Below, one piece after another: positions 34,722 to 59,842 of a stretch of DNA of 64,000 nt. The stretch is from Clostridia bacterium. GTDB lineage: Bacteria > Bacillota > Clostridia > UMGS1810. Position numbers and translations under genes: made by a program. Within the stretch, counting starts at the first letter, position 1; the number at the start of each line of letters is the position of its first letter. The DNA lies in assembly GCA_017436905.1 (NCBI GenBank), contig JAFSCF010000019.1, positions 62,001 to 126,000 on the forward strand. Direction: 5' to 3'. Under the pieces are notes generated by a model. That model had not been told where the DNA came from, searched no databases, and saw only the letters and a program-made list of their open reading frames with translations.

Positions 34722-35849
34722 TTATTTCTTTATATGTCTTGTAACATTTAAAATTATTCCCATTCCGCACAGTATAATGAATAGGCTTGTGCCACCATAA
34801 CTGAAAAACGGCAGGGGAATACCCGTTGCAGGCATTGACGATGTAACAACGGCGATATTTAACACCACCTGTATACCAATAAGCGCCGTGATACCCGTTA
34901 CAAGCAATGACGAAAATGCATCAGGCGCGTGCATGGCTATCTGTATACCTTTCCATATAAGCACCACGAAAAGTATAACAACCAAAAGTGCACCGAAAAA
35001 GCCCAGTTCTTCGCAGATGATTGAAAATATAAAATCGTTCTGCGGTTCGGGCAGATACAAAAACTTCTGTCTGCTCTGACCAAGACCAAGCCCAAAAAGC
35101 CCGCCTGAGCCTATCGCATAAAGCGACTGAACTATCTGGAAACCGTCGCCAAGCATATCGGAGAACGGGTCAAGAAATGTTTTAAATCGTGCAAGTCTGT
35201 AAGGGGCAACTATAATCATACCTGCAACACCTGCTCCGGCAACGGGCAGAAGATACATAAAGTGCCTGAATTTAGCACCGGCAGCAAAAAGCATAACTAT
35301 GCCCACTCCGCCAATAACCATCGCACCACTCATATGCGGTTCTAAAAGAACAAGACCTGCCACAATTCCTATAACTGCAAGGTAGATAACAAATCCGCCC
35401 CAGAACTTATCGAGCATATCGCTGTTATCTGCCAGACTTTTAGCAAGGAATATAATTAATGTGAATTTTGCAATCTCGGACGGTTGGAAAGTAAACACGC
35501 TGAAGCCCAGCCATCGTGACGCACCATTTACCTCTACTCCCAGTGGTGTCAATACCAAAATCAGCAAAATTGCCGAAACACCAAGTGCGGGCAAAGCGAA
35601 TTTATAATACACCTTATAAGGAATAACTGAAAAAACATACATTCCCACAAGACCTATCACTGCCCACAAAAACTGGCGTTTGATAAAATAGAATGTGTCG
35701 TTCATACGGTAGTGCGCAGACGCACTGCTTGCAGAGAACACCATAATAAGACCGTATGCCAAAAGCATTATTACAACGGCTAAAAATGTATAGTCAATAT
35801 TTTTTAGTTTTTTTATTTTTGTGCCTTGCGGCAGTTTTGGTATCTGCAT
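34722..35849 (-). CDS. ftsW: SEDS peptidoglycan glycosyltransferase FtsW
   Basis: Polymerises lipid II at the septum together with a class B PBP. 375 residues and about ten membrane segments; conserved LEPHMSGAMVIGGVGIVMLF, QSLYAIGSGGLFGLGLGQSRQK, LPEPQNDFIFSIICEELGF and TGIPLPFFSYGGTS. Position in the dcw cluster favours FtsW over RodA. The ATG follows GGAGGCAAAT. murD, which usually lies between mraY and ftsW, is missing. Confidence 0.95.
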   Translation of the reverse strand: MQIPKLPQGTKIKKLKNIDYTFLAVVIMLLAYGLIMVFSASSASAHYRMNDTFYFIKRQFLWAVIGLVGMYVFSVIPYKVYYKFALPALGVSAILLILVLTPLGVEVNGASRWLGFSVFTFQPSEIAKFTLIIFLAKSLADNSDMLDKFWGGFVIYLAVIGIVAGLVLLEPHMSGAMVIGGVGIVMLFAAGAKFRHFMYLLPVAGAGVAGMIIVAPYRLARFKTFLDPFSDMLGDGFQIVQSLYAIGSGGLFGLGLGQSRQKFLYLPEPQNDFIFSIICEELGFFGALLVVILFVVLIWKGIQIAMHAPDAFSSLLVTGITALIGIQVVLNIAVVTSSMPATGIPLPFFSYGGTSLFIILCGMGIILNVTRHIKK

Positions 35850-39826: not shown

Positions 39827-42043
39827 TTAGTGTACGTTTATATATTTAAACTCTACGGTTACTACCGTTCCTTTTGGAACAAGTGTTCCCGACGGCGGCG
39901 ACTGTGACGATGCAACTGCTTCGCCGTCCTGAACTTCGGCATTGCCGGAAATCCGTATATTAAGGTTAGAGTTTGTTATACGTTTATTGGTTTCGCTTAC
40001 GCTGCAACCGATAACATCGGGCACTACAACATCGCTTTCGTCGGTTTCACGCGTGTAGAGAACAACCGTAGAAGACGATGGCAATGCTGTGCCGCCTTTG
40101 GGTATCTGCGATACAACCGTTTCGCCGTCACCGACTATCTGATATTTAAGGCCTGAGTTTGCAAATGCAGCAGGCACATCTGCAACCGGAAGTCCTTCTA
40201 CATTTGGAACGGGCAGATCCATAGTTTCAAGTTCTTCAGCAGTATACTGCGGCTCAACGCCTAAGTAACGAAGAATATCGTCAAATATAAGTTTGAACGT
40301 AGGCGCCGCTATCTGTCCACCCATATGTGAGTCGCCCATAGGCTCATCGAGCAGAAGCAATCCGATTACCTCGGGGTCATTGGCAGGTGCAAAGCCCATA
40401 AACGATGCTATATATTTGCCGTTGCCACGTGGTAGTTTTTCACTTGTACCGGTTTTTCCAGCGATACGGAAACCAGGGATATAAGCATTTTTAGAAGTTC
40501 CGTTCGTTACAACACTTTCCAGTATCTGTCTGGTAGTTGATGCCGTTTCGGCCGAAATTACTTTTCTTATATATTCTGTATCAAAAGTCTGAATAACATT
40601 ACCGCTATCGTCAACTAATTCTTTAGCAATACGAGGTCTTACCATAGTTCCGTCGTTTGTGATGGCCGAATATGCAGTAACAAGTTGCAGAGGTGTAATC
40701 TGGAACGACTGGCCAAAAGAAGATGTTGCAAGTTCCACCTCATTGAAGTTTTCCGTTGAGTGGAAGGCACAAACCGCCTCGCCGGGGAGGTCAAAACCTG
40801 TTTTTTCGGCAAAGCCGAATGCTTTATAGTATTTATAGAAATTGGCATTGCCAACACGTGCACCCACTGTCATAAACACGGGGTTACAAGAACCCTCAAC
40901 ACCCTGAACGAATGTAACAGTTCCATGACCGCCATGCTTCCAGCAACTTATAGAATGTGGACCTACCTGAAGTGCTCCTGTGCAGTTAAATGTATCTGTA
41001 AGACTTACAACGTTTTCTTCAAGTGCCATAGCAGTAGTGATACCTTTAAATGTAGAGCCTGGCTCGTAGGTATCTACAACTGCCTTGTTTCTCCACATTT
41101 TTTGTATTTCATCATTATATGCTTTTGATTTTTCCTCACCCGTAAGAGAGTCTACCAACGCCTGAGCCTCGGCGCTGTTTAAAGTAAACGGGTCATTCAA
41201 ATCGTACGACGGGTATGTTGCCATAGCAAGGATTTCACCAGTTTTGCTATTCATCACTATACACGCAGCACCATTTTGCACATTATAATCTGCAACTGCC
41301 TTTTCAAGATGCTTTTCCACAAAGTGCTGGATTGTTTCGTCTATTGTAAGTACAAGGTTTGCGCCATTTTCGGGGTTTATGTATTTTTCGTACTTAAACG
41401 GCATATCTGTACCGATTGCATTTTTAGCAGTTACTACTCTGCCGGGAATACCTTTTAAGTAATTGTCAAACGAAAGTTCAACGCCTGCAAGACCTTGGTT
41501 ATCGGCACCTACAAAGCCTATAACGTGTGCCGCCAAACTTCCGTAAGGGTAATAGCGTTTGGTATCTTCTGAAAGGTAAACTCCTTTTAATTTATTAACC
41601 GTTTTGCCGTTCTCATCCTCTGCACTCATAAGAGAACGGATAGCCTCGGCAGGTGCTTTTTCTACACGGCGTTTGATAATTTCGTAACTTGAGTTTTTTG
41701 TAATCTTTTCGTAAACAGCAGTTCTGTCAAGTTCAAGTATCTGTGCAAGCGAGTCGGCAACAAAGTCGGCATTGCCTGCCTCGTGAATCTCACGGGGGCT
41801 TACCGAAACAAGTTCAACAGACGCACTCTGTGCCAAAATCTTTCCGTTACGGTCATATATAATGCCTCGCTTGGAGTTAATTGTTTTATCTTTTGTTTGT
41901 TGTTCTATGGCTTTTATCTGCAGTTCTTCGCCATTTACAAACTGTATCCACGCACAACGCACCAACAGGGCAATCAGCAGTACAACAAATATAACAAGCG
42001 TTACAAACGCACGTTTTTTGTTCTGTAAATTCAATGCTTTCAT
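39827..42043 (-). CDS. SpoVD/FtsI-type penicillin-binding protein with PASTA domains
   Basis: Class B PBP of septal or spore-cortex wall synthesis. 738 residues: one N-terminal membrane segment (about 12-30), a dimerisation domain (KRGIIYDRNGKILAQ), the transpeptidase domain with STFK near 328, SCW-type second motif region (HSISCWKHGGHG then GSCNPVF), KTGTSEKLPRG near 531, and two PASTA domains at about 610-665 and 675-735. Single-gene dcw clusters of Clostridia use one such PBP for division; whether a second FtsI exists elsewhere is unknown. A terminator separates it from ftsL. Confidence 0.93.
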   Translation of the reverse strand: MKALNLQNKKRAFVTLVIFVVLLIALLVRCAWIQFVNGEELQIKAIEQQTKDKTINSKRGIIYDRNGKILAQSASVELVSVSPREIHEAGNADFVADSLAQILELDRTAVYEKITKNSSYEIIKRRVEKAPAEAIRSLMSAEDENGKTVNKLKGVYLSEDTKRYYPYGSLAAHVIGFVGADNQGLAGVELSFDNYLKGIPGRVVTAKNAIGTDMPFKYEKYINPENGANLVLTIDETIQHFVEKHLEKAVADYNVQNGAACIVMNSKTGEILAMATYPSYDLNDPFTLNSAEAQALVDSLTGEEKSKAYNDEIQKMWRNKAVVDTYEPGSTFKGITTAMALEENVVSLTDTFNCTGALQVGPHSISCWKHGGHGTVTFVQGVEGSCNPVFMTVGARVGNANFYKYYKAFGFAEKTGFDLPGEAVCAFHSTENFNEVELATSSFGQSFQITPLQLVTAYSAITNDGTMVRPRIAKELVDDSGNVIQTFDTEYIRKVISAETASTTRQILESVVTNGTSKNAYIPGFRIAGKTGTSEKLPRGNGKYIASFMGFAPANDPEVIGLLLLDEPMGDSHMGGQIAAPTFKLIFDDILRYLGVEPQYTAEELETMDLPVPNVEGLPVADVPAAFANSGLKYQIVGDGETVVSQIPKGGTALPSSSTVVLYTRETDESDVVVPDVIGCSVSETNKRITNSNLNIRISGNAEVQDGEAVASSQSPPSGTLVPKGTVVTVEFKYINVH

Positions 42044-55496: not shown

Positions 55497-56984
55497 TTAA
55501 TTTACATAGTTCATAGGGTTTTGAACTTCGTCGTTATAACGCACCTCAAAGTGCACGTGTGGTCCGGTACTATTACCGGTGCTACCCAAAGTGGCGATGG
55601 TTTCGCCTTTTTCAACCACATCACCAACATCGGCAAGCAGACTGTTACAATGAGCATAATATGTTACATATCCGTTATTATGGTCAATTTTTATAACTTT
55701 TCCGTAGCCACCACTCCAGCCGGAGAAAATTACAGTGCCGTTATCTGCCGCTACAATCGGGTCGCCAACAGTTCCGCAAATATCGACGCCTGTGTGAGTG
55801 CCCGAACGGCGTGAGCCAAAACGCGAACTTACCTTTCCGTAGTAAGGGCGCATAAACGAGCCTGTGCCCACGTGCGACGGACGTTCTTTTGTGCCGATTG
55901 CACGCATCTGCATAACGGGTTCACATACAACTTCACTGCTTATTACAGTCTGGTTTACGATTGCACCGTTTGCACGTTCAATCTTCTCTGTAACGGCGGT
56001 TATACCGTTAGCACCTGCCTGCAGGATTTTTTCGCTGCCCTCGTAAATAGTTGCATCTTCTGTAACCTGTTCTTCAAACGGAACGGTGGTTTCATAACTC
56101 AATGTATCAGTAGTCAGCACTGTGATGATTGGTTTCCACACGGGAATAACAACTGTATCGGAAGTATTAATATACTCGCCGAGTTTGGGATTCAATGATT
56201 TTAAATATTCAACTTCTAATCCGTTATCTGCAGCAAAGTCTGCAAAAGCGATTTTTTTATCAACTGCAACTGTATTATAAAGCGTTGTAAATCCCTGAAG
56301 CCTTTCTAAAGCAGCAGCGCTGTCCATAACTATAACAGACGGAACATATTCATAAAGCACCTTAACATCTTCTTTAAACGAAACCTGCGTGGCATCGTCT
56401 GTTTTATATAAAGACGCAATCTGCAAAATAATATCCTCTGCCTGAGTCTTATCATTGAGCGCAGCAAATGCAATATCGTCAACCTCTACAGAATAAGCCT
56501 GCACCATAACATCTGATGTCGACTTAATATTTTCGCAAACTGCAACTGCATCTGTAAATGCTGCCCGTCTTATAATAGCAGGAACATATGTGATTTTTGC
56601 TTTTATAATATCTTCTCCGCTTACATACTGTGCAAATTCTGCATTTATATTATCCACGCAATTTTGCACAAATTCTTTGTCGGGTACATAACCCAGTTCA
56701 GTATCACCTATAAATGCATTATAAGCAAACGAAAAATTGATGTTGAACAGCATCGTAAGCGAAAGTGCCGCCACTGCAACAAGCGCACTTGCAACAGTTT
56801 TTTTATTAAGAGCATTATAAAATGCGATTATCTCATTTTTTATACCGTTAAAATAAGTTTTTAATGTTTTTGTCGTTTGGGATGTTTCGGTGTTTTTATC
56901 AACCTGTGCATATGCTTTGGCGATGCAATTACGCTTGACACTTTTGCTGTCGGCATCTGCAGCATTGATTTTGACAAACCGCAT
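55497..56984 (-). CDS. Membrane-anchored M23 peptidase with G5 domain
   Basis: Zinc endopeptidase that cuts peptidoglycan crosslinks. 495 residues: a cytoplasmic N-terminus of about 65 residues, one membrane segment (about 66-90), an extracytoplasmic region with a LysM-like stretch (NPKLGEYINTSDTVVIPVWKP), a G5 domain at about 300-372, and a C-terminal M23/LytM domain with zinc ligands in HTGVDICG near 396 and HVHFEV near 479. The long leader has an exact 16-base palindrome just before the ribosome binding site. mscL is probably in the same transcript. Confidence 0.94.
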   Translation of the reverse strand: MRFVKINAADADSKSVKRNCIAKAYAQVDKNTETSQTTKTLKTYFNGIKNEIIAFYNALNKKTVASALVAVAALSLTMLFNINFSFAYNAFIGDTELGYVPDKEFVQNCVDNINAEFAQYVSGEDIIKAKITYVPAIIRRAAFTDAVAVCENIKSTSDVMVQAYSVEVDDIAFAALNDKTQAEDIILQIASLYKTDDATQVSFKEDVKVLYEYVPSVIVMDSAAALERLQGFTTLYNTVAVDKKIAFADFAADNGLEVEYLKSLNPKLGEYINTSDTVVIPVWKPIITVLTTDTLSYETTVPFEEQVTEDATIYEGSEKILQAGANGITAVTEKIERANGAIVNQTVISSEVVCEPVMQMRAIGTKERPSHVGTGSFMRPYYGKVSSRFGSRRSGTHTGVDICGTVGDPIVAADNGTVIFSGWSGGYGKVIKIDHNNGYVTYYAHCNSLLADVGDVVEKGETIATLGSTGNSTGPHVHFEVRYNDEVQNPMNYVN

Positions 56985-57006
56985 TTTCTCACCTTCTTTT
57001 CTTTTA

Positions 57007-57046
57007 CCGAATCAATATAATCCTAACCACGATTATATTGATTCGG
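57007..57046. repeat. Perfect 16-base inverted repeat in the M23 gene leader
   Basis: CCGAATCAATATAATC (57007-57022) and its exact reverse complement (57031-57046) flank an eight-base spacer, ending 22 bases before the start codon. There is no T-run. It could be a protein-binding operator or an mRNA stem acting on translation. Confidence 0.7.
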
Positions 57047-57088
57047 CTAGTAATAGTGTATTTAATTATTCAGAAAATATGTAAATTT

Positions 57089-57116
57089 TGTAATAGTTTC
57101 TTAACATTTTTGTAAC
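57089..57116 (+). promoter_or_regulatory. WalR-like half-site array upstream of the M23 gene
   Basis: TGTAAT (57089), CTTAAC (57100) and TGTAAC (57111) are spaced by exactly 11 bases, as in the WalR consensus TGTWAH-N5-TGTWAH; the middle site is imperfect. It lies downstream of the predicted start point. WalR control of M23 peptidases is known in Bacilli; here it is inferred only. Confidence 0.3.
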
Positions 57117-57139
57117 TATTTTATCGCAATACAGAGTAA

Positions 57140-57168
57140 AGTATATCACAAAAATTCAAAAAAAGCAA
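57140..57168 (-). promoter_or_regulatory. Promoter of the M23-mscL pair
   Basis: Minus-strand TTGCTT (57163-57168), a 17-base spacer and TATACT (57140-57145), with TGA before the -10. Confidence 0.65.
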
Positions 57169-57190
57169 CCTTTTATTAAATTTTTACACA

Positions 57191-57862
57191 TTACCTTTCT
57201 GCAAAAAATTGAGGCGTGTTGCCCACTATAATAGTCTGCGCAGCCATTACAGATGTAGTAACTGTGCCTTTTATTCTTGCAACGGCAGATATGGCACGCA
57301 TATCGGCGGTGATATCTATATATATCTCGTGGCGGGTCTGGTTAATGCCGGCATCTGTAAACTGCGAACGGAAATCCACCTTAACATTTCCGTACGGGAC
57401 TATGCAAAACGGTATTTTAGGGCCAATACCCGACAATAGTATTATATCTGTAAGATTGCCGAGAGGAATTGTAAAACCTTTGCTACCAAACTGTTCTATA
57501 TCGTTTAAAATATCAACCGCAAGATTTGACTTGAATTTATTTATCGCTGCAGTGTCGGCAGTTATGGAAGTTATCTGCCCGTCATCGTTATACGATATAT
57601 CCATAAGTTTATTATACATATCGCCGTTAAGGCTGGTTAAAACAGTTTTATTTATTATATTTGTAGCATTTGCCTCAAGCATTTTTTGTGATACATCTTC
57701 TATAAGCGGGTAAACTCTTACAAGAGCAGAGCAAATACAATATGTAACAGATGTAGCTATAAGCAACGCAACTGCCCATCGGCTTATACGCTTTTTGCGT
57801 GCAGGACGAATATACGTTCTGTACGGTCTGCCGAACTTCATAGTGCCAAACTTCTTTTTCAT
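57191..57862 (-). CDS. yunB: Sporulation protein YunB
   Basis: Mother-cell sporulation protein in Bacillus, function unclear. 223 residues from the ATG at 57862 (GGGAGAGAG upstream). A basic N-terminus, a membrane segment (VALLIATSVTYCICSALVRVYP), then EANATNIINKTVLTSL, DISYNDDGQITSITADTAAIN, GSKGFTIPLGNLTDIILLSGIGPKIP and FTDAGINQTRHEIYIDI, close to the YunB family pattern. Its presence supports a sporulating relative. It is divergent from the PBP-like gene. Confidence 0.93.
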   Translation of the reverse strand: MKKKFGTMKFGRPYRTYIRPARKKRISRWAVALLIATSVTYCICSALVRVYPLIEDVSQKMLEANATNIINKTVLTSLNGDMYNKLMDISYNDDGQITSITADTAAINKFKSNLAVDILNDIEQFGSKGFTIPLGNLTDIILLSGIGPKIPFCIVPYGNVKVDFRSQFTDAGINQTRHEIYIDITADMRAISAVARIKGTVTTSVMAAQTIIVGNTPQFFAER

Positions 57863-58010
57863 ATTCTCTCTCCCAACCATAATATTCAATCAGAAAGTAT
57901 ACGTATTCAACCTTGCCTAAATATGCTGAAGCAAGTTTGAACACTTATACTTAATATATCTGATCTTTAGAATAAATCACCAATTTATACAGAAAATACA
58001 TTAAGAGGTG

Positions 58011-58988
58011 ATGCGTATTAAAAGGCCAAAAAAGTTTTTACTGATATTTATGATTCCGCTTGTATACCTTATGTGTGCTATATTAAATATTACGGTTTTT
58101 AAAGGTAATGAATATTCGCATATGGCGGCAACACAACGGACAAACCAAACAGAAATAAGCAGAGGCATTATAACCGACAGAAATATGATACCCTTAACCG
58201 GAACGGACATAAGATACACAGACAGTTCGTTAGCACGCCATGTTATCGGCTACACAGACTCTTACGGCGATGGCATAAGCGGAATTGAAAAGGATTTTGA
58301 CGACGAATTATCGTCAAACGGCAAAGGCCCATACTCGTCACTTAAAGATGCAAACGGAAACGAAATACCAAATTTTAAAACTGACGATTTTAAAACAAAC
58401 CAAAAATATGTAAAACTTACCCTTGACTATCATATTCAGAATATAGTTGAAAATGTTCTTGACAAAAACTCTACAACAGGTGCAGCGGTAGTTCTTGATA
58501 CAGGAAATTTTGATATCCTCGCCGTGGCAAGCAGACCGAATTTTGACCAGAACGATGTGGCACAGTATATAAATTCAGGCGGAACGGCACTTGTAAACAG
58601 AGCAGTAACGCCGTATAAGGCAGATGAATTATGCGCCACAGCACCACTTTTATTTACCAAAACCGAAATAACACCTCTGCAAGCCGCCCAATTGGCTTGC
58701 ACGGTTGCTGCAAAAGGAATACGTAAAGAAAGTAACATCGTTGGCGGAATTGCACTCGAAAACGGATATATAATAAAATCTATGCGTAACGGTAATCAAA
58801 AAAGAATTTTACCGAAAACAGTTACAAAAGAAATTAAAAGTGAAATATCGGGCGAAATATGGGCAATAGGATATTTTCCTTATGAAAATCCGCAATATGC
58901 CATGTCTGTATTGAGTGAAAACGATGCAAGTGCAAATAAAATCTATAATGAAATTAAGAAAAGAATACTTGCGCTGAATATCCAATAA
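58011..58988 (+). CDS. Degenerate class B PBP-like membrane protein without transpeptidase motifs
   Basis: 325 residues: a basic N-terminus, one membrane segment (about 8-28), a PBP dimerisation-like part (ISRGIITDRNMIPLTGTDIR, ARHVIGYTDSYGDGISGIE), a remnant of the transpeptidase domain (NRAVTPYKADEL then directly TEITPLQAAQLACTVAAKG), and a C-terminal WAIGYFPYENPQYAMSVL. SxxK, SxN and KTG are all gone, and the segments that carry them are missing rather than mutated. The frame is otherwise intact. The AAGAGGTG site abuts the ATG at 58011, an unusually short spacing; a GTG at 58008 is no better and an ATT at 58017 would be better spaced. Confidence 0.8.
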   Translation: MRIKRPKKFLLIFMIPLVYLMCAILNITVFKGNEYSHMAATQRTNQTEISRGIITDRNMIPLTGTDIRYTDSSLARHVIGYTDSYGDGISGIEKDFDDELSSNGKGPYSSLKDANGNEIPNFKTDDFKTNQKYVKLTLDYHIQNIVENVLDKNSTTGAAVVLDTGNFDILAVASRPNFDQNDVAQYINSGGTALVNRAVTPYKADELCATAPLLFTKTEITPLQAAQLACTVAAKGIRKESNIVGGIALENGYIIKSMRNGNQKRILPKTVTKEIKSEISGEIWAIGYFPYENPQYAMSVLSENDASANKIYNEIKKRILALNIQ

Positions 58989-59013
58989 AAAAGACGGCAT
59001 AGCCGTCTTTTTT
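58987..59013. terminator. Bidirectional terminator between the PBP-like gene and the ABC permease
   Basis: AAAAAAGACGGC and GCCGTCTTTTTT around a three-base loop, with A/T runs on both sides; it serves two convergent genes. Confidence 0.9.
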
Positions 59014-59842
59014 ATCCTTTTACTGCACCGTCGGACACACCACGGACGATATGCTTTTGTAAAAGAAGAAAAACTATAATGATTGGAATGATAGATACGA
59101 ACACCGCAGGGAAGATAAGTTCCCAAGGATTTCCGAATTGCCCTGATGTCATTTTTGCAAAGTAGAGTTCCAGAGTTAGCGTTCTTGAAGATGCATTACC
59201 GATTACAAGAAACGGAAGCAGGTAGTCGTTCCATATCCACATAGAGTTTAAAATAATTACCGTTGCCGTGGTGGATTTCATCAGCGGAAAAACAACCGTG
59301 AAGAATGTTTTTATCATTCCTGCTCCGTCAATGAGGGCTGCCTCTTCAATCGACGGCGGTATGCTTTTTACAAAGCCGTGATACAAAAATATTGACAAAC
59401 TGAGCCCGAAACCACCGTACATAATGATAAGCCCTAAAATGTTTTTAAGCCCTACCCCCTCGAACAGACTAAGCAACGGATACATAACCGCCTGAAACGG
59501 AATAAGCATTGCGGCAGTAAACATATAAAGCATTACGGACGAAGTTTTTGTTTTTGCTCTTGCAACCGCCCACCCTGCCAAAGATGACGCCAAAACAATA
59601 AGTGCAACCGAAAGCACTGTTACTATAAAAGTTATTCCAAGTGAACGGAAAAAGTTAATCTCCTGCGACGCAGTTAAAATATAGTCAAAATCCCAGTTGA
59701 GCGGCAACGACATTGGCGACGCCACAATCTCTGACTGCGATTTAAACGAGTTTATAAGCAAAAACGCAACAGGTGCCAAAGTTAAAATTGCAAACACCGT
59801 GAGCGCAATATACAAAACGGTGTGCAGAACTTTTTTCCTCAA
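59012..59842 (-). CDS. Sugar ABC transporter permease (MalG/RafG type)
   Basis: Inner-membrane subunit of a CUT1 carbohydrate importer. 276 residues with six membrane segments and the EAA loop EEAALIDGAGMIKTFFTVVFPLMKS. The start is TTG at 59842, overlapping the stop of the partner permease (TTGA), with GGAGGTGG upstream. No ATPase subunit gene is nearby, so a shared MsmX/UgpC-type ATPase encoded elsewhere is probable. Confidence 0.94.
   Translation of the reverse strand: MRKKVLHTVLYIALTVFAILTLAPVAFLLINSFKSQSEIVASPMSLPLNWDFDYILTASQEINFFRSLGITFIVTVLSVALIVLASSLAGWAVARAKTKTSSVMLYMFTAAMLIPFQAVMYPLLSLFEGVGLKNILGLIIMYGGFGLSLSIFLYHGFVKSIPPSIEEAALIDGAGMIKTFFTVVFPLMKSTTATVIILNSMWIWNDYLLPFLVIGNASSRTLTLELYFAKMTSGQFGNPWELIFPAVFVSIIPIIIVFLLLQKHIVRGVSDGAVKG

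Follow-up and report, generated by a model that had tools for sequence, protein, structure and literature searches.

The closest described system is PBP3 of C. difficile (CD630_12290; PDB 7rd0), a sporulation-induced, Zn-binding class B penicillin-binding protein (PBP). It is Spo0A-dependent, is found at the polar septum and interacts with SpoVD, SpoVE and FtsQ (PMC12713402). In a spoVD catalytic mutant it promotes asymmetric division without catalysis of its own, although that catalysis is important at later stages (PMC12713402). Its deletion costs only ∼2-fold in spores, whereas a catalytic mutant of PBP3 has a sporulation defect worse than that of the deletion, and the authors suggest that the catalytically dead protein competes for SpoVE (PMC12713402). 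Once inactivated, C. difficile SpoVD S311A and PBP3 S299A and B. subtilis PBP2b support division non-catalytically via contacts with SEDS proteins or the divisome (PMC12713402). The pedestal of class B PBPs touches ECL4 of SEDS proteins, leading to activation (PMC8078798), and the ligands of Zn-binding class B PBPs of anaerobes are Cys/Asp, Cys/Asp, His and the Cys of SxN (PMC9334274). Class B PBP function apart from cross-linking has so far been tested mostly with point mutants.

The stretch of DNA analyzed here (the window, 64,000 nucleotides) encodes a protein of this type that lacks its catalytic core. The source is a single MAG (88.8% complete, 20 contigs) of a gut or rumen spore-former whose genome, at 1.36 Mb, is smaller than the ∼2 Mb of the family's other genera. 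Both spo0A and spoIVA are present, together with three genes for SEDS proteins. The relevant features of the window are as follows.

34722..35849, minus strand: intact FtsW/SpoVE-type SEDS polymerase, candidate partner
39827..42043, minus strand: intact SpoVD/FtsI-type class B PBP with PASTA domains, candidate partner
57191..57889, minus strand: yunB, the divergent neighbor, intact (TIGR02832 above cut-off)
58008..58988, plus strand: whole open reading frame of the catalytically gutted class B PBP (PBP3-like); probable start ATT 58017
58026..58100, plus strand: N-terminal membrane anchor, helix of residues 7-31 (AF2 model, alignment)
58101..58400, plus strand: pedestal or dimerisation-type region, to residue 131, strongly conserved (alignments, phmmer to 7rd0)
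58401..58622, plus strand: retained start of the transpeptidase domain (YVKLTLDYHIQ...ILAVASRPNFD...NRAVTPYKA)
58623..58667, plus strand: junction of the first lost block, 15 codons compared with 119-121 in congeners; SxxK, the Zn-site C/H and SCN gone
58668..58844, plus strand: retained ITPLQAAQ... segment, first C-terminal transpeptidase remnant, residues 221-279
58845..58859, plus strand: junction of the second lost block, 36 codons net; KTGSAETGW region gone, IAGKTG replaced by ISGEI
58860..58985, plus strand: terminal strands and helix WAIGYFPYENPQYAMSVL... kept; 3-4 codons gone after SEN

The window protein and C. difficile PBP3 have in common a transmembrane (TM) helix, pedestal and transpeptidase layout, the lack of PASTA domains and a sporulation context. 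Unlike PBP3, the window protein has no SxxK, SxN, KTG or Zn ligands, and its length is 326 aa rather than ∼470-560. SpoVD and FtsI share its N-terminal architecture but have PASTA domains, which the window protein lacks along with the catalytic core; a separate, intact SpoVD-type gene lies in the window. The inactivated SpoVD, PBP3 and PBP2b proteins are single-residue laboratory mutants with an intact fold, whereas the loss here is natural and takes out whole subdomains. Our literature searches found no natural pseudo-PBPs, a negative that is weak evidence that none exist.

The original prediction described a PBP-like protein that had lost every transpeptidase motif, and alignment to congeners and homologs bears this out. 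At the motif columns, the window protein has E or a gap where homologs have S..K, gaps in place of SxN and E-I-gap in place of KTG, so that the three motifs of a functional serine D,D-transpeptidase (PF00905 enzyme) are absent. These motifs hardly vary among 65 homologs. The sole exception among S, K, C, N and K is a T in place of the SxN serine in one homolog, and KTG has its T in every case but one, which has S; the G of KTG varies (A in eleven, S in four). An intact ortholog in one further genome (G008, L052 3974-5515) has KTSS as its third motif where others have KTGS. The columns of the His and the SCN Cys that mark Zn-binding class B PBPs are also gaps in the window protein, where homologs have the Cys and mostly the His. 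The losses take away the helical part, which carries SxxK, SCN and the Cys/His Zn site, together with the KTG strand.

Compared with the two congeneric genomes, G001 and G002, the interval from NRAVxPYxA to ITPxQ has 15 residues instead of 121 and 119 (net loss ∼105 aa), that from ITPxQ to W has 64 instead of 100 in each (36 aa), and that from W to the protein end has 42 instead of 45 and 46 (3-4 aa). All three net losses preserve the reading frame. To call the segments cleanly absent, as the original prediction did, was an overstatement: ∼12 residues (208-219, CATAPLLFTKTE) do not align with confidence, and we therefore count at least three deletion events, and perhaps five or six. DNA-DNA alignment to the congeners was too noisy, at ∼50% protein identity, for the placement of deletion ends or junction repeats.

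Pfam, NCBIfam and PDB searches agree that the open reading frame encodes a class B PBP. The PF00905 match is partial (6.9e-9) and best across the last strands (residues 283-321), the NCBIfam spoVD model matches residues 70-187 (3.7e-24), and the best PDB sequence match by phmmer is 7rd0 (6.5e-23; runner-up 8.5e-10). The same structure is the first PDB match of a full-length congener protein (2.8e-53, aligned over 9-463 of 468 residues). Over residues 3-208, identity to both congeners is 54% (E ∼1e-62), and the resemblance of the retained half is thus greater than chance. Of the parts said to be recognizable, the anchor, the conserved pedestal and the C-terminal strand all are, whereas the PBP_dimer match itself falls below threshold (13.9 bits against a cut-off of 24.4). 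The predicted structure (AF2, alignment of 39 sequences; pLDDT 85, pTM 0.76) shows the TM helix, parts of the pedestal and, in compact form, what remains of the transpeptidase sheet along with the terminal helix, although confidence in the remnant may derive from intact homologs in the alignment. A Foldseek comparison of this model ranks C. difficile PBP3 as the nearest solved fold (4e-16).

Full-length orthologs are present in G001 (sheep colon; 468 aa) and G002 (∼470 aa), both with AGSIFK, SCN and GKTGS. As originally noted, the window gene is divergent from yunB, and the same arrangement with a full-length PBP occurs in five relatives, namely both congeners and three other genera; the ABC permease that lies convergent and downstream of the PBP in the window has the same position in G001. 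The occurrence of full-length genes at the same locus in relatives indicates that the locus is ancestral and that the window copy lost its core later. Similarity, a locus shared with full-length orthologs, and an N-terminal TM helix and pedestal together identify the gene, at the level of sequence, as an ortholog of PBP3-type sporulation class B PBPs. Spo0A was not found in G001 (71% complete), though its yunB and PBP are intact; the simplest reason is that the genome is incomplete. The yunB gene, an M23/G5 protein gene and the PBP gene (window 55497-58988) have 49-59% identity to the congeners, compared with 83% for SpoVD, and this region also diverges far more between the congeners than most other neighbors do, as a fast-evolving sporulation locus.

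It had been proposed that homologs lacking the same segments should be sought and that full-length, active versions at the same locus would indicate a recent pseudogene. We found no gutted homolog with the same loss in 391 Clostridia genomes. An alignment-based contig scan covered 80 loci, none seen with this loss, and a single-sequence contig scan for homologs gave no matches. A short open frame in G165 was rejected as a gutted homolog because it is a contig end, and short frames in G013 and G034 were taken as contig ends, by coordinates only. The congeners do carry full-length, active-type versions at the locus, which, as judged from these alignments, confines the loss to the window lineage but says nothing of recency or functionlessness.

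An intact gene misassembled or misbinned in the MAG would also produce a loss seen in one assembly of limited completeness. We consider such an artefact highly improbable, as misassembly is not expected to give at least three separate in-frame losses together with altered flanks (EI in place of KTG) and accelerated remnants, and most of the 12 neighbor genes align to the congeners over their full or nearly full length. Intact sequence for the missing domain was found nowhere else in the genome, which also led us to reject the idea that the domain had moved elsewhere. A second copy of this PBP that might take over its task was not found in the genome, and the remaining PBPs are intact paralogs at ∼30% identity.

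A test of the dN/dS type had likewise been suggested, and we compared change along the gene on the window branch. Maximum likelihood (ML) branch lengths are 0.15 for the TM helix and 0.23 for the pedestal, compared with 0.41-0.62 and 0.98-1.59 in the congeners, and the first transpeptidase strands have an ordinary length. The C-terminal remnants, at 0.89, exceed the 0.41-0.46 of the congeners. Changes unique to the window lineage occur at 2 of 34 informative sites in the TM helix and pedestal and at 31 of 70 in the remnants (10/23 in the first transpeptidase part and 21/47 in the C-terminal remnants), a difference with a Fisher p of 3.9e-5 for which the four domain boundaries were fixed beforehand and the pooling was chosen after the counts had been seen. 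The pooled fraction for 12 neighbor genes is 0.205 (range 0.11-0.26; MraY was left out as a likely paralog in G002). Against this background the remnants show an excess (p = 8e-6) and the TM helix and pedestal show no acceleration. In a codon model, omega = 1 is rejected for residues 2-205 (2ΔlnL = 11.9) and not for the remnants (2ΔlnL = 2.6); synonymous sites are saturated by the large congener divergence, which makes branch omegas rough, and only the test against omega = 1 was used. These three tests and a fourth, the count of stops given below, agree that, at the sequence level, decay is not uniform along the gene.

These data bear directly on whether the gene is a young pseudogene, in which case PBP3 would have been dispensable in a small-genome, host-associated spore-former, the deletions would have preceded any stop or frameshift and the protein would be idle. 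The restriction of the gutted form to one lineage fits this explanation, as do the mild cost of deleting C. difficile PBP3 (PMC12713402), the small genome and the genus-wide fast evolution of the locus; if it holds, PBP3 is being lost in small-genome gut spore-formers. However, the frame is open and relaxation is limited to the transpeptidase remnants. The length changes, at least three, are all in frame (chance ∼1/27), and no stops are seen in the remnants where ∼3 are expected under neutrality (P ∼0.04, assuming ∼1 neutral substitution per codon). The lack of excess change in the TM helix and pedestal and the rejection of neutrality for residues 2-205 also argue against a pseudogene, although the window branch spans time before the deletions as well, possibly the source of much of the observed conservation. 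On balance we regard a young pseudogene as unlikely, though well short of negligible, and prefer a non-enzymatic role roughly two to one.

Our preferred reading, to which we assign a probability of about 0.58, is that a PBP3-type sporulation PBP has become a pseudoenzyme in the window lineage and has kept a non-catalytic role in septation. Of the three attributes of a pseudoenzyme, lost catalysis and continued sequence constraint are supported; the catalytic loss is directly observed, whereas the third attribute, a function, is inferred from the constraint. The constrained TM helix and pedestal, the relaxed remnants, the sporulation genes and the PBP3 precedent make a retained role the better supported reading. 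The intact terminator and ribosome-binding site, the candidate partners of SpoVD and SpoVE type and the confidently predicted compact remnant also favor it. The retained half corresponds to exactly the part to which the C. difficile and SEDS studies (PMC12713402, PMC8078798) assign a non-catalytic role. The protein would still be made and inserted in the membrane, where its TM helix and pedestal may dock, within the polar divisome, on a SpoVE/FtsW-type SEDS protein or a SpoVD-type PBP; once docked, the protein would assist asymmetric division as an auxiliary factor. Cross-links would be made instead by SpoVD, other class B PBPs or a class A PBP, and the shrunken transpeptidase domain would be a folded cap, nothing more. 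The catalysis-free part of PBP3 function would thus be kept and the catalysis-requiring part lost. The odds seem to us even that this anchor, pedestal and catalytically empty cap have been maintained by selection as a SEDS or divisome regulator in sporulation. Counting against a helper of this kind are the defect of the C. difficile PBP3 catalytic mutant, which implies that losing catalysis carries a cost, and the presence of the gutted form in a single MAG with no second gutted relative. The original proposal of a retained role in the divisome or spore wall machinery is partly supported by the asymmetric constraint, the sporulation genes and the PBP3 precedent, and no homolog sharing the loss was found in the 391 Clostridia genomes; a decoy, also suggested there, is conceivable, and nothing in the analysis speaks for it.

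If the preferred reading is correct, a lineage that has discarded the catalytic core and kept anchor and pedestal is evolution's version of the point-mutant experiment. It would back the recent claim of a catalysis-independent contribution by C. difficile PBP3 to asymmetric division, and it would provide a minimal construct for testing which part of a PBP suffices. Evolution would then have separated the allosteric role of a PBP from its role in cross-linking, a proposition that we judge to be evenly balanced.

The protein could instead be a dominant-negative brake that occupies SpoVE/FtsW or SpoVD without activating it and thereby adjusts how much septum or cortex is made, its own expression being limited by a non-ATG start. 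We think this improbable. The C. difficile finding that dead PBP3 is worse than none, with the suggested SpoVE competition, speaks for a brake, as do the ATT/ATA-type starts that all three members of the genus have; however, the present data fail to separate a brake from a helper, and the non-ATG start also occurs in the intact relatives, which indicates that it is unlinked to the gutting. The features that bear on expression are as follows.

58003..58012, plus strand: Shine-Dalgarno sequence AAGAGGTGAT, overlapping the GTG/ATG codons, with the right spacing for ATT 58017
58003-58019 in the window, L050 3980-4005 and L051 3985-4005: PBP start regions in the genus
58985..59015, no strand assigned: strong intrinsic terminator between convergent genes

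The gene had been described as 325 open codons from ATG 58011. The frame is indeed open (326 codons counted from GTG 58008, with the first ATG at 58011), but the true start is probably not this ATG because the ribosome-binding site, which is intact, overlaps it. The likelier ATT 58017 aligns with the ATG start of orthologs from other genera. A sigma-70 pattern scan gave matches no commoner than chance. ATG, GTG or TTG is the start codon of most other genes in the window that have a clear ribosome-binding site. In G002, the stretch from the upstream stop to the TM helix contains no in-frame ATG, GTG or TTG. The apparent start codons are ATT in the window, ATA or ATT in G001 and ATA in G002, so that all three genus members appear to have a non-standard PBP start, each behind a strong Shine-Dalgarno sequence. 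Such a start may act as translational damping, in the intact relatives as well as in the window lineage.
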